27,371 nt of DNA from a virus, in IMG/VR virus record IMGVR_UViG_3300027797_001923, positions 1-27,371 of that record. One strand, written 5' to 3'. Shown piece after piece: positions 4,571-13,795 of this stretch. The notes under the pieces are model-generated. The model worked only from the letters and a program-made list of their open reading frames with translations, was not told where the DNA came from and ran no database searches. The first letter of the stretch is position 1, and every line of letters starts with the position of its first letter. Both the position numbers and the translations under genes were made by a program.

Positions 4571-6430
4571 CTAATCTCCTCCGAGTGCGAGTATGAATGG
4601 TGTCATCGTGGAGAACAAACTCTTGGAGTAGAATGTTCCTGAAATAGTTCCGGTTTGTTGATTAATCACAACACCATCACCAATACGAAAGTTTCCTGCT
4701 TGGTCGGTAGATGTGAATACAACCAGACTACCATTTCTCATATCAATTTCATTTTCTTGAATTGGAACTCCACCTTGATTAGGAAGAGCACTATTAATAT
4801 TAGTTCCAGAACCAATGTATTCCAAAGAATGTCCTGATGCTAATATTCGGCTTTGCTTAAAGAATGGAACGGTTGAACCAACACCCACAGCATAAGGAAC
4901 ATTATCATTCACCGTAATCGTACAAATACCACCAGATATTGGTGTTGACCTTAATATAGAGTAATAAGTTGGAATTAGATTTGCAGTTCCTGTTGCCGTA
5001 TTTATTCCAGAGTTGGGTGATGCAAAAGTTACTGTTGGTATTCCTGTGTATCCTCTTCCATTAGAAACCATTTCCACAGAAGTCACAGAACCATTTGTAA
5101 CTTCGCCAACAGCAGTTGCAGAAACTCCCCAAGGTTCACTTGGGTCACTAAAAGTAATGTCTACATTTTGAGTATAACCAGTTCCACCAGAACCAACAGT
5201 CACACCACCAACAGTATAATAAAGTTCATCAAAATACACTACCTGACCATCATAAGGTCTTGATACATTAATCTTTACAGTTCCACCAGAATTATAGGTA
5301 TGCGAAAGTGTAGAAACTCCAATATAAGCGGAGAAACTATTTGCGGCACCAATAGCAGCAACCTCAAAGATATATCCAAAGTTTCCAGAAGGGAACGTAG
5401 ATATTCCAGCACCAGAAGGACAAGTAAATCCAAGTCCGGCAATTGAAACACCCATTCCGACATTAAGGTTGTGATTTGTGGTTGTGGTAATTGTGATAAT
5501 TCCAACAGTATTATTATAAACAGCAGTCTGTATTCCAAGTGTTGGAACATTTAAATCTAAAACAAAAGTATCACTATCTGCATCTGTGGCAGTTGTAATG
5601 ATACCGGTATATTTCTTTGGACCAACACCATCGGCAACTAATCCATAATTACCAAATGATGAGTTAGAGTTCGTTAAGTCACAGGCAGAACCAGAACCAC
5701 AGAAAATAGCAGTATCATTACAAATGGTAAAAATAGAAACTAACTGAGCATATCCTTCATTCGTAATTGAAACTCCAATACCACCCTGATTATATTGGGT
5801 ATAAGAATCTACAACCATTGACTTTAATGGTCCTATTGCCTTGGAACCATCGATCTTCATTCCAATACTATTTGGAATAAAGTTAGTGCAGTTCTGCACA
5901 TAAGGAGACTGATTAAAATATCCAACTTGATTTGGATTAAATGCGACAATTGCCTTACCAGAATTTAATGACCCAGTAAAAGACATTTCTGCAATGTAAT
6001 CACCATTTGCAACATAAAACAAATCTTCATTTGCATTCTGTGGTGATACTGATACTTCTCTTAGACTATCACCAATAATACTTACTTGTTCTGGAATAAT
6101 AACTGGGTTATTTTCTACATAAGATCCAGCACTAACTTTAATAACAGTTCCTGTTCCTGCTGTTGCGATTGCTCCTGCGATTGTTGCTTTTGCGTCTCCA
6201 AGTTTTCTTCCTGTGTTTGTATCACTTCCATCTTTCGTAACATAAAGAATATTTGTAACTGTTGCACCGGCACCAAGTCTTACAACATCAGTACCTATAC
6301 CACTTCTTTCTCTTGTAGTATAAAGTTCTGCATCATAAGTATTAAGTGCTAATTCACCTATTTGCAGATCTGCAACTACCGGCCTCTTACCCGGTACAGC
6401 AGACCTTTTAATTCTAAAAGGAGTTGCCAT
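4571..6430 (-). CDS. Virion structural protein with beta-helix (pectate-lyase-like) region (619 aa)
   Basis: The N-terminus (MATPFRIKRSAVPGKRPVVADLQIGELALNTYDAELYTTRE) is the short motif that opens many phage fibre proteins, PVVADLQIGELALN-YDAELY. Residues about 60-130 read ILYVTKDGSDTNTGRKLGDAKATIAGAI, TVIKVSAGSYVENNPVIIPEQVSIIGDSL. This is the classic start of a right-handed parallel beta-helix (GSDTNTG, AIA-A--GTVIKV-AGSY-E-NP, V-IIGD). Later parts hold VGSGGTGYTQNVDITFSDP and GRGYTGIPTVTFASP repeats. The C-terminus is MTPFILALGGD. A late promoter lies 57 nt upstream. Most likely it is a trimeric fibre or spike. No depolymerase active-site residues can be assigned from sequence alone, so enzymatic action is not claimed. 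Confidence 0.85.
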   Translation of the reverse strand: MATPFRIKRSAVPGKRPVVADLQIGELALNTYDAELYTTRERSGIGTDVVRLGAGATVTNILYVTKDGSDTNTGRKLGDAKATIAGAIATAGTGTVIKVSAGSYVENNPVIIPEQVSIIGDSLREVSVSPQNANEDLFYVANGDYIAEMSFTGSLNSGKAIVAFNPNQVGYFNQSPYVQNCTNFIPNSIGMKIDGSKAIGPLKSMVVDSYTQYNQGGIGVSITNEGYAQLVSIFTICNDTAIFCGSGSACDLTNSNSSFGNYGLVADGVGPKKYTGIITTATDADSDTFVLDLNVPTLGIQTAVYNNTVGIITITTTTNHNLNVGMGVSIAGLGFTCPSGAGISTFPSGNFGYIFEVAAIGAANSFSAYIGVSTLSHTYNSGGTVKINVSRPYDGQVVYFDELYYTVGGVTVGSGGTGYTQNVDITFSDPSEPWGVSATAVGEVTNGSVTSVEMVSNGRGYTGIPTVTFASPNSGINTATGTANLIPTYYSILRSTPISGGICTITVNDNVPYAVGVGSTVPFFKQSRILASGHSLEYIGSGTNINSALPNQGGVPIQENEIDMRNGSLVVFTSTDQAGNFRIGDGVVINQQTGTISGTFYSKSLFSTMTPFILALGGD

Positions 6431-6464: not shown

Positions 6465-6478
6465 GACTTATATAAGTC
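6465..6478. repeat. 14-bp perfect palindrome GACTTATATAAGTC
   Basis: A perfect palindrome in the 71-nt gap between the HNH gene and the 619-aa structural gene, 35 nt before the structural gene's ATG. It could be an operator or a short terminator stem (GACTT/AAGTC, ATAT loop) followed by GTATTTT on the minus strand. Similar half-sites occur at 6884-6894 and at the hli promoter. Confidence 0.5.
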
Positions 6479-6873: not shown

Positions 6874-6893
6874 AAGTGTTTGCGACTTATAAG

Positions 6894-6901
6894 TATTTAT
6901 T
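6894..6901 (-). promoter_or_regulatory. Late-promoter-like element AATAAATA before the HNH gene
   Basis: The minus strand reads GAATAAATACTTATAAGTCG. The octamer matches NATAAATA and overlaps the 3' end of the 69-aa gene. It is followed directly by the palindrome ACTTATAAGT (6885-6894). The leader to the ATG at 6873 would be only about 10-15 nt, which is short. Confidence 0.4.
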
Positions 6902-10521: not shown

Positions 10522-11601
10522 TCAACCGATTGCGGGTGCAGTAAGAGCAACAGGAGTTAACTCAGCAGCAGCAAGATCCAATGGAAAATTATGTGCATTT
10601 CTTTCGTGCATTACCTCGAGCCCGAGACCAGCACGGTTGAGAACATCAGCCCAGGTGTTTACAACACGTCCCTGACTATCCAGAATACTCTGATTGAAAT
10701 TCAGACCGTTCAAATTGAATGCCATCGTGGAAACACCAAGTGCAGTGAACCAGATGCCTACAACAGGCCAGGCAGCAAGGAAGAAGTGAAGTGAACGTGA
10801 GTTGTTGAACGAAGCATATTGGAAGATCAAACGACCAAAGTATCCGTGAGCAGCAACAATGTTGTAAGTCTCTTCTTCTTGACCAAACTTGTAACCGTAG
10901 TTCTGGGACTCGGATTCTGTGGTTTCACGAACCAGTGAGGATGTGACCAAAGAACCGTGCATCGCAGAGAACAGTGAACCACCGAAGACACCAGCAACTC
11001 CAAGCATATGGAAGGGGTGCATAAGGATGTTATGTTCTGCCTGGAATACAAGCATGTAGTTAAATGTACCGGAAATACCCAAAGGCATAGCATCAGAGAA
11101 CGAACCTTGACCGAAAGGATATACAAGGAATACGGCAGTAGCAGCAGCAACAGGTGCAGAGTAAGCAACCATAATCCAAGGACGCATACCTAAACGGTAA
11201 GAGAGTTCCCACTCACGTCCCATATAGCAGAAGATACCAATCAGGAAGTGAAAAATAATAAGTTGGAAAGGTCCACCATTATACAACCATTCATCCAGAG
11301 AAGCAGCTTCCCAGATAGGATAGAAGTGAAGTCCGATAGCGTTAGAAGAAGGAATAACAGCACCAGAGATGATGTTGTTACCGTACATTAATGAACCAGC
11401 GACAGGTTCACGAATGCCGTCGATGTCCACAGGAGGAGCACCAATGAAGGCGATGATGAAACAAGTAGTTGCCGCAAGAAGGCAAGGAATCATCAGAACA
11501 CCGAACCAACCAACATAAAGGCGGTTGTCGGTAGAAGTAATCCAGGAACAAAAATCTTCCCAGAGATTACTATTAGAGCGTGTAGCAATTGTAGCAGTCA
11601 T
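10522..11601 (-). CDS. psbA: Photosystem II D1 protein (359 aa)
   Basis: This is D1, the rapidly turned-over core subunit of photosystem II. Canonical numbering fits without gaps to the end of the mature protein. Tyr161 is TyrZ with His190. Asp170, Glu189, His332, Glu333, Asp342 and the carboxylate of Ala344 are the Mn4CaO5 ligands. His198 binds the special pair, His215 and His272 bind the iron, and Ser264 lies in the QB pocket. Residue 130 is Glu, the form linked in cyanobacteria to high-light D1 variants, rather than Gln. Fifteen residues follow Ala344 ([15 protein letters not shown]), so the host C-terminal protease CtpA must process it. There is no intron or endonuclease insertion. It has its own strong promoter and structured leader and ends at a strong terminator. 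Phage D1 replaces damaged host D1 and sustains energy supply during infection. Confidence 0.99.
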
Positions 11602-11752
11602 TTGTTAAAAGGGTAAATAAGAATTCAGGGGGAACTGAAAGTTACGGTTATTCCTGTACCACCCTCCAGCACAGGTATGAGAGACGCTTTACTTCTGATG
11701 GTCTCGGTTGCAGAAGGTTACGGAACGTAAAGATTTGTCTTCGTTTCCTGAC
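11602..11752 (-). ncRNA. Structured psbA leader with possible pseudoknot (PhotoRC-II-like candidate)
   Basis: The predicted transcript starts near 11752 and has about 150 nt before the psbA ATG. On the minus strand CUUUA (11732-11728) pairs with UAAAG (11691-11687), and CUUCUG (11716-11711) pairs with CAGAAG (11697-11692), stacking into one helix. GAGAC in the hairpin loop (11705-11701) can then pair with GUCUC just downstream (11685-11681), an H-type pseudoknot. Two further hairpins follow: CCUGU/ACAGG (11675-11671 with 11657-11653) and UUCAG/CUGAA (11639-11635 with 11628-11624). No clear Shine-Dalgarno precedes the ATG. Conserved psbA leader RNAs named PhotoRC-I and PhotoRC-II are known from marine cyanobacteria and cyanophages. 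I infer this is such an element but cannot match it to a covariance model here. Confidence 0.5.
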
Positions 11753-11875: not shown

Positions 11876-11908
11876 AAAAAAATCCTCACCCGTATTTAGA
11901 GTGAGGAT
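11876..11908 (-). terminator. Intrinsic terminator of hli
   Basis: A perfect 8-bp stem (ATCCTCAC/GTGAGGAT, 11882-11889 with 11901-11908) with an 11-nt loop is followed by a minus-strand run of seven T (the first is shared with the closing pair). It starts 29 nt past the hli stop. Confidence 0.88.
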
Positions 11909-11937: not shown

Positions 11938-12147
11938 TCACCATACTCCAGGAATTACTTGCCCGGTTAGTACGTAGGCACCAACGGCAGCAATAAATCC
12001 AATCATCGCAAATCGTCCGTTTAGTTTTTCTGCGCGTTCTGCATAAGTTTCAACTTCATTTTGTTGCATGTCTTTCTCCGTAATGTACATTTTAGGTTCT
12101 TTAGCAAACATATTTTGTTCGCCACGTTCGTTGGTTGTGATCGTCAT
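11938..12147 (-). CDS. hli: High-light-inducible protein (69 aa)
   Basis: A single-helix protein of the chlorophyll a/b-binding family. The signature AERAEKLNGRFAMIGF covers residues 36-51, with E40, N43, R45, A47, M48 and G50, the residues that bind chlorophyll and lock the helix. The membrane helix runs from about 44 to 62 and the protein ends TGQVIPGVW. HLIPs sit in the thylakoid membrane, protect photosystem II and help D1 assembly by quenching or carrying chlorophyll. Many cyanophages carry them beside psbA. The N-terminal 30 residues are polar and variable. Met13 is a possible later start; I keep the ATG at 12147 because the promoter leaves a leader of about 20 nt to it. It has its own promoter and terminator, so it is a single-gene unit just upstream of psbA. 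Confidence 0.95.
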   Translation of the reverse strand: MTITTNERGEQNMFAKEPKMYITEKDMQQNEVETYAERAEKLNGRFAMIGFIAAVGAYVLTGQVIPGVW

Positions 12148-12174
12148 TTGAGTATCATAAAGTTTTACAACCTA

Positions 12175-12203
12175 ATTATATAGGAATCATAAAGACTTGT
12201 CAA
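12175..12203 (-). promoter_or_regulatory. hli promoter, fully consensus sigma70
   Basis: The minus strand has TTGACA (12203-12198), exactly 17 nt of spacer and TATAAT (12180-12175). Both hexamers and the spacing are consensus. Transcription should start near 12168, giving a leader of about 20 nt. No late octamer is present, so this looks like an early promoter for host RNA polymerase. Confidence 0.92.
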
Positions 12204-12208
12204 GTCTT
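12192..12208. promoter_or_regulatory. 17-bp palindrome covering the hli -35 box (candidate operator)
   Basis: AAGACTTG-T-CAAGTCTT is a perfect inverted repeat of 8-bp arms centred on 12200. It contains the whole -35 hexamer and overlaps the stop codon of the GT25 gene. A protein bound here would block RNA polymerase. As a terminator it would be poor, because no T-run follows on the minus strand. Confidence 0.55.
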
Positions 12209-13001
12209 ATTTTGCATCAAAACCTGGTGGAAGGGTTCCGAAATATGGATCATAATCGAAAATAGAATTCCAATCTTCCACATTTGTCGCATCAACTCTC
12301 CAAAAATTCCACAAACCTTCATAACTTGACTTATGAAATACATCTACGTGATCGTGATGAATAGAAGATCCCAATTCAATATTGTAAATGAATAAAGGAA
12401 TTGCGAAAGTATTGCCCGAATTATAAACCAGATCATCAGCAACTGCGCGTGGTTTGACTCCATTATCCAATTTATACTTATTCTCCCGAACGTGAAGATT
12501 GATAAGTTTCTGTGCGTGATGGCGAGTAATCAAATAACAGGCAGTTGAGAAATCATTCACAAACCGACGATGCATTTTTACATGAACCTGTGCAGGATTA
12601 ATAATCGCAAGTTGGACTACATCATAATCATAGGGAACCTTACAAAAGAAATCCTTCCACTTAAAAGGCCAATTAGTTACTGTAGAGATATCACAATCAT
12701 CTTCCATAATTAAAGCACAAGAAGAATCGGAGTTCTCTAAGAAGTGCTTCAGTGCCTTCAGATGCGATGTAGTGCAACCTACCTCCCCAGAAGACATAAG
12801 ATCAGGATAGCGTCCTTTGAGGATGTCCCCGAGGTCTCTACCATCCCTACCATCATAGGCAGAGATACGAGTATAATCTTCAATCTCCCAATACTTAAAT
12901 TGCTCCTCCATATATTCTGCTCTCTCTGGTTGTTCGTCCAGATTGAGATAATAAATGGGAGGAAGACCCTTGAGTTTATAGGCTGCTTTATTTCGATCCA
13001 T
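12207..13001 (-). CDS. Family 25 glycosyltransferase (264 aa)
   Basis: Resembles GT25 (LPS galactosyl/glucosyltransferases of the LgtB/LpsA type). YYLNLDEQPERAEYM (residues 17-31) is the nucleotide-binding start. EVGCTTSHLKAL (73-84) is the conserved GC--SH motif, and LIMEDDCDIS (97-106) holds the acidic metal-binding cluster. C-terminal sequence VADDLVYNSGNTFAIPLFIYN also fits the family. The ATG at 13001 overlaps the upstream stop by one base (TAATG); an upstream TTG at 13016 is less likely. It is the last gene of the sugar operon. It should transfer a hexose from a UDP-sugar onto an oligosaccharide acceptor in the cytoplasm or at the membrane face. Donor and acceptor are not predictable. 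Confidence 0.88.
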   Translation of the reverse strand: MDRNKAAYKLKGLPPIYYLNLDEQPERAEYMEEQFKYWEIEDYTRISAYDGRDGRDLGDILKGRYPDLMSSGEVGCTTSHLKALKHFLENSDSSCALIMEDDCDISTVTNWPFKWKDFFCKVPYDYDVVQLAIINPAQVHVKMHRRFVNDFSTACYLITRHHAQKLINLHVRENKYKLDNGVKPRAVADDLVYNSGNTFAIPLFIYNIELGSSIHHDHVDVFHKSSYEGLWNFWRVDATNVEDWNSIFDYDPYFGTLPPGFDAK

Positions 13002-13795
13002 TAGATTACATTCCAATTATCACAATACAAATCTTTAGTTTCTTTATCAACATTATTAGGTCCAAACCATTTTGATGGGGCAATAACCTTTTCAGAATTT
13101 GCTAACCATGCTCCCCACCAAGAGAATGAAGAATTGGCAATAATGTGTCCACTACAAAAAGTCATCATACAGAGATCAATGGTATTATTTCCAGACTCGG
13201 AAATAAGAAACCTATCATCAGAGAATAATGATTGTTTTTTACACCATTCTGGATCATCCGAGAACACAATGATTTGACGATTCTCAAAATACTCCAATGC
13301 CTTCTCATAATAATCAAGATCCAGATTGTTGTGATTCGCACTATTTGTTAAGTAGTCGGTGCGACGAACGTGAAGAGACACAGGATTATCAAAACCTGCA
13401 GCAATCGCCTTACAAGGTTCTAGAATATGGTTCCTAAAAGTGAAATCTTCTTTGATGTTATTCTCTATATGTTTAAAGTATTTTTCCGATTGAAAGAATC
13501 CCCAAAGAGAAACATCATTTGGACATTGGTTTAAAAGTACTTCATCAAAATAAAAAAATCTTTCCTGGACAACTGGAGCATTACCAACATCAAGATATTT
13601 AATATTTTGTTTTGATAGATTGGGAAGTTCAAATACTTCAAAGAGTTGATGAGATCTCCATTCATCTTCAAACTTAGACGGTGGAATTCCAAACTCATAT
13701 CCCCTGCGAACAGCAATACCACTTAAAGAGGCATACTGAAACATTTGATTTCCAAGTCTTCCCAATCGTCCTAGATGATTAAATGCGAGCATCAT
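13001..13795 (-). CDS. Family 11 alpha-1,2-fucosyltransferase-like (264 aa)
   Basis: GT11 motifs are clear. GRLGNQMFQYA (residues 12-22) is the opening motif. LHVRRTDYL (141-149) is the HxRR(G/T)D GDP-fucose-binding motif, and IANSSFSWWGAWLA (219-232) is the third conserved motif. Length (264) is slightly below the usual 280-300. The enzyme should add L-fucose, or a close analogue, in alpha-1,2 linkage from a GDP-sugar. AAGGAG lies 5 nt before the first of two adjacent ATG codons, supporting the start at 13795, which lies inside the upstream gene by 17 nt. A second GT11 gene sits two genes upstream (14593-15447). The pair shares the same architecture, including QSEKYF/QTEKYF and DDPEW, and probably arose by duplication. 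Confidence 0.93.
   Translation of the reverse strand: MMLAFNHLGRLGRLGNQMFQYASLSGIAVRRGYEFGIPPSKFEDEWRSHQLFEVFELPNLSKQNIKYLDVGNAPVVQERFFYFDEVLLNQCPNDVSLWGFFQSEKYFKHIENNIKEDFTFRNHILEPCKAIAAGFDNPVSLHVRRTDYLTNSANHNNLDLDYYEKALEYFENRQIIVFSDDPEWCKKQSLFSDDRFLISESGNNTIDLCMMTFCSGHIIANSSFSWWGAWLANSEKVIAPSKWFGPNNVDKETKDLYCDNWNVI

Follow-up and report, generated by a model that had tools for sequence, protein, structure and literature searches.

A consensus hli promoter of a T4-like cyanophage with its −35 box in a weak, terminator-like hairpin

The window analysed here is the whole 27,371-nucleotide stretch of IMGVR_UViG_3300027797_001923, a 27-kb virus record of the T4-like cyanophage kind. psbA, hli and a run of sugar genes lie on the minus strand throughout, and the features of the hli region are collected in Table 1. 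The hli product was recognised by its phage homologues and gave no Pfam match. A strong intrinsic terminator follows hli, which makes it a one-gene unit. The promoter of the neighbouring psbA, TTGACA-N17-TATGAT at 11787-11754 (minus strand), has a TG in front of its −10 box and overlaps a T4-late-like ATAAATA motif. Similar overlaps of the form TTGACA-N17-TATGATAAATA were found in many relatives, and the psbA arrangement may combine an early and a late promoter.

Table 1. Features of the hli region and other annotated elements of the window.
Feature	Coordinates	Strand	Basis
psbA (D1), next gene downstream of hli, own promoter and leader	10522..11601	-	sequence
PhotoRC-II RNA (RF01717), psbA leader	11640..11730	-	Rfam match
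Strong intrinsic terminator 3' of hli (10 bp stem, TTTTTT)	11882..11908	-	sequence prediction
hli, 69 aa high-light-inducible protein	11938..12147	-	phage hli homologues
−10 box TATAAT, 17-bp spacer to −35	12175..12180	-	sequence
Remaining spacer TATGATTCCTA, weak counterpart of the T-run in relatives	12181..12191	-	4 T in best 8
Palindrome/hairpin AAGACTTGACAAGTCTT = AAGACTT(GAC)AAGTCTT, 7 pairs, 2 G-C; weak terminator-like stem	12192..12208	-	sequence and MFE
−35 box TTGACA; supplies hairpin loop and inner stem pairs	12198..12203	-	sequence
Glycosyltransferase family 25 gene, upstream of hli, same strand	12207..13016	-	PF01755, E=4.4e-12
wcaG RNA, cut by contig end	27289..27371	-	Rfam match

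The hli promoter, TTGACA-N17-TATAAT at 12203-12175 on the minus strand, matches the sigma70 consensus at 12 of 12 positions, as the first-pass annotation had stated, and the 10 kb that were scanned hold no other match of this kind. The two boxes lie upstream of a gene, and their spacing falls within the 16–18 bp expected of a sigma70-type promoter. From the promoter spacing, the hli transcript is predicted to start near 12168, approximately 21 nt before the ATG. The supposed rarity of such a full consensus did not hold among relatives. Approximately 69 of the 78 hli loci fetched by protein (counted by eye) have the same or a near-identical promoter, and the bases flanking the −35 box vary among these loci. 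Part of our hli set was fetched with a pattern that required the promoter, the hairpin described below being outside that pattern; promoter conservation was therefore judged on the 78 protein-fetched loci only. This conservation supports the earlier proposal of a strong sigma70 promoter, of host type, for hli. Among 135 hli promoters of IMG/VR loci whose upstream gene is on the same strand, 26 have the TGA stop codon of that gene inside the −35 TTGACA.

The −35 box also sits in a perfect 17-bp palindrome, as first reported. Read on the minus strand (12208-12192), the palindrome begins at the second base of the TAA stop codon of the glycosyltransferase gene, and it is unique in the window (one match at up to three mismatches, with 0.22 expected). 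Perfect palindromes with arms of at least 7 are common in the window (6, versus 8.15 in shuffles), so that only the coincidence with the −35 box is notable. TTGACAA is itself half-palindromic (TTG-A-CAA) and gives two pairs free. The window hairpin has a minimum free energy of −4.7 to −6.3 kcal/mol in 36-nt segments, compared with −13 to −16 kcal/mol in strong relatives. When measured as an intrinsic terminator, it lacks a G+C-rich stem of at least 5 pairs (only 2 of its 7 pairs are G-C), and it lacks a T-run after the stem, TATGATTCC having 4 T in its best 8. The exact palindrome occurs in 39 IMG/VR contigs, and a single control palindrome with the same composition in 1; we give this count little weight because many of the contigs repeat one locus almost unchanged, with a poor −10 box, and only some of the copies lie on promoters.

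The same gene junction could be compared in relatives. Among 13 variants of the glycosyltransferase-hli junction, the stem is kept in six and absent in seven (L089, L072, L073, L093, L086, L654 and L017), and these seven keep the promoter. The palindrome is thus lost from close relatives with the promoter in place, the outcome that the first-pass annotation had itself set against its view of a promoter switched off by a repressor, and that view is not supported: the palindrome changes or vanishes, and the promoter stays. Variants that keep the stem differ partly by G-U pairs, as in L002, L082 and L083, and these pairs maintain the RNA stem and break the symmetry of the DNA.

In the wider set of cyanophage hli promoters, a recurrent layout was seen: a G+C-rich hairpin with the −35 box as its loop, followed by a T-run that fills the spacer between the −35 and −10 boxes. 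Examples, all shaped like intrinsic terminators, are GGGGGTTGACAAACCCCCTTTTTT (L012), GGAACCCTTGACAGGGTTCCTTTTTT (L047) and AAAGGGGCTTGACGCCCCTTTATTTTT (L150). We scored a hairpin when the stem had at least 5 pairs, at least 3 of them G-C, and the loop fell on the −35 box. The null was obtained by swapping left and right flanks among the sequences in 300 trials. Of the 152 distinct hli promoters, 50 carry the hairpin, for which the null gives a mean of 10.9 and a maximum of 21, and 43 carry the hairpin together with the T-run (null mean 9.4, maximum 17); two thirds of hli promoters are without the hairpin. The excess persists when each cluster is represented by a single sequence, at three clustering thresholds, for example 27.4 hairpins versus 4.9 in the null for 102 clusters and 12.8 versus 2.0 for 65 clusters. 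In the promoters that are left, A+T-rich stems show a mild excess (13 versus 6.9; 1/300 shuffles). By eye, no strong hairpin was seen at the hli promoters of five isolates (Syn33, S-ShM2, S-SCSM1, Sf-CH8 and DSL-LC03).

The hairpin sites comprise 32 distinct stems in several loop registers. Between nearest neighbours, 14 stem-pair differences are two-sided and compensatory, 27 are one-sided with pairing kept and 28 are broken; the stems of L068 and L201 are a single swapped pair apart. The sixth base of the −35 box is not A in 10 of the 50 hairpin sites, compared with 3 of the 102 others. Where an upstream gene was found, it lies on the same strand in 46 of 47 hairpin sites. A separate upstream terminator occurs at none of the 50 hairpin sites and at 12 of the 102 others (p=0.009), and in L070 such a terminator stands just before the −35 box in place of the composite. 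A G+C-rich stem on the −35 box, a T-run, a same-strand upstream gene and compensatory changes are thus all present in the relatives, as a fused terminator and promoter should have them.

The layout is not confined to hli. The sequence GGGGTGCTTGACACCCC was seen 119 times where its context could be read, in 86 distinct contexts, and both the T-run and the −10 box are present in 108 of these. Sixty-three of the 108 full sites precede hli; the other 45 precede genes that were not recognised as hli, a few of these being hli cut by a contig end. Some of the non-hli genes adjoin thyX-, hsp20-, glutaredoxin- or DNA polymerase-like proteins (names by eye). A genome survey that started from predicted terminators and took no account of hli found the composite at other gene boundaries and in each of 10 cyanophage genomes, where it accounts for 18 of 240 predicted terminators. 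The same terminator survey found none in T4, T5 or HTVC008M, one imperfect case in KVP40 and, by its criteria, none in the window. Over all records, 12 terminators with the −35 box in the loop have a −10 box of at least 5/6 matches at exactly 17 bp, and no other spacing between 8 and 29 has more than one. The hairpin is not general to strong promoters in hli-bearing loci (2 of 325; null 1.1). Strong composites occur, for example, in S-SCSM1 near 146710, in DSL-LC03 near 170465 and in Sf-CH8. In four annotated isolates, the composite lies at or near gene boundaries and sometimes inside annotated gene starts, which may have been placed too early. Two such starts, of a restriction endonuclease in Syn33 (near 38206) and a helicase in S-ShM2 (near 45762), fall inside predicted composite promoters, and the true starts of these two genes may be further downstream.

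We consider it somewhat better than an even chance that the site in the window is the sigma70-type promoter of the one-gene hli unit with its −35 box in a terminator-type hairpin, the window copy being a weak or partly decayed form of the composite. In such a composite, the RNA of the upstream same-strand gene would fold into a G+C-rich hairpin, with the −35 sequence as the loop. The polymerase would pause on the T-run within the −35/−10 spacer, and the RNA would be released, while the same DNA in double-stranded form would serve as the hli promoter. The arrangement would shield hli from transcription that reads through from upstream, and it would save space. The window copy would combine a weak or partly decayed terminator with a promoter that is still fully consensus. 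It is regarded as a weak terminator because of its A+T-rich stem, its poor T-run and the contact of the stem with the upstream stop codon. Owing to this last contact, a terminating ribosome could block folding. Directly visible in the sequences are the promoter, the T-run, the constant 17-bp geometry and, in relatives, the excess of hairpins and their compensatory changes; we infer from sequence both the actual termination and initiation at composites and the membership of the window copy in the class. A broader proposal, which we hold to be improbable, is that cyanophages use the terminator loop as a −35 element at several boundaries per genome and that the polymerase released at the T-run stays on the −10 region of the next promoter and re-initiates there, so that the end of one unit would be coupled to the start of the following one, with the window copy a weakened case.

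For the window copy, we rank the composite first and a chance origin of the palindrome second, and an operator is unlikely. The chance explanation, under which the promoter alone is functional, is a possibility to be taken seriously, even if a less probable one. The right arm, AAGTCTT, would be a common start of hli spacers, and the left arm would be the stop codon plus a few bases. Such an origin fits a stem that is not conserved among the junction variants, has low G+C and a poor T-run, and belongs to a size of palindrome common in the window; shuffled flanks give approximately 0.9 stems with at least 6 Watson-Crick pairs, and 4 were seen. It sits less well with weak stems that are mildly above expectation, with the pairing-neutral character, in RNA, of the changes in stem-keeping variants, and with a wider family that clearly selects hairpins at the −35 box.

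A phage or host dimeric repressor that binds AAGACTTGTCAAGTCTT and blocks the −35 box would account for the perfect 17-bp symmetry across that box and for the identical palindrome at consensus promoters in other phages (L166, L168, L194, L180, L191 and L199). The excess of contigs with the palindrome over the control points the same way, though many are near-copies of one locus. We nevertheless find an operator very improbable, since the palindrome is not conserved where the promoter is, the stems of the family differ in sequence and register, the window holds no second copy, and no regulator gene appeared among the ten window proteins scanned in Pfam. The palindrome is neither conserved with the promoter nor repeated at co-regulated sites, as a repressor operator should be. 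Across the family, the 32 stem sequences, the several loop registers and the one-sided T-run agree with an RNA terminator rather than with a fixed-sequence site for a protein, and the operator was rejected. The least credible reading is that the inverted repeat acts as DNA, as a cruciform or supercoil sensor that modulates promoter opening. The perfect DNA symmetry in the window is in its favour, but 7-bp arms are short for the extrusion of a cruciform, the G-U pairs of L002, L082 and L083 spare the RNA stem and break the DNA palindrome, and the T-run in the family is one-sided.

The composite shares features with known arrangements. In the frd/ampC region of Escherichia coli, frd is terminated by the ampC attenuator, which is located 3' of the start site. 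There too, the termination of one unit and the regulation of the next share DNA; in the cyanophage composite, however, the −35 box itself forms the loop and the T-run makes up the spacer. As a single gene between its own promoter (12203-12175) and terminator (11908-11882), hli resembles the morons of lambdoid phages (PMC1524935), but composites precede other phage genes too. The same hli-psbA region also holds PhotoRC-II RNA, an already known cis element; it lies in the psbA leader and is unrelated to the hli palindrome. In T4-like cyanophages, the same phage group, Sullivan 2010 (PMC3037559) lists hli03 as a core gene and predicts sigma70 promoters and, with TransTermHP, terminators. The two were predicted separately there, flanking cassettes such as pstS, and the passages found in that paper describe neither a −35 box within the loop of a terminator nor its occurrence across gene boundaries. 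Our literature search, of partial coverage, found no description of a −35 box in a terminator loop. What we claim as new is the fused layout, as read from the genomes; promoters and terminators as such are not new. If confirmed, it would mean that large cyanophages pack insulation and initiation into approximately 45 bp around photosynthesis genes, and the composite would be a natural, testable case of termination followed by re-initiation.

The first-pass annotation had also pointed to related half-sites and to one regulator acting at several phage sites. The half-site palindrome at 6465-6478, GACTTATATAAGTC, is real, whereas the one proposed at 6884-6894 has imperfect symmetry. The window has two occurrences of GACTT-N0..6-AAGTC, versus 0.24 in shuffled sequence, but neither the spacing nor the symmetry is the same at the two sites, and TTGACA is absent from the site at 6465. 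Neither 6465 nor 6884 yielded a shared regulator site, and the proposal of a common regulator was dropped. The GACTTATATAAGTC palindrome lies in a short gap just upstream of a 619-aa gene that starts at 6430 and is near ATAAATA motifs; no link to hli was found.

Palindromes on a −35 box are easily misread as operators, since TTGACAA is already half a hairpin. In L166, L168, L194, L180, L191 and L199, the exact AAGACTTGACAAGTCTT stands on fully consensus promoters with TATAAT 17 bp away and an A-run before it, and there it is possibly a true operator. Locus L281 has two consensus promoters, at 1249 and 1517, with long perfect palindromes over the −35 box, AAGGGCTT(GACAA)AAGCCCTT and GGAGGGATT(GACAA)AATCCCTCC, and no T-run. 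These two palindromes are better candidates for repressor sites.
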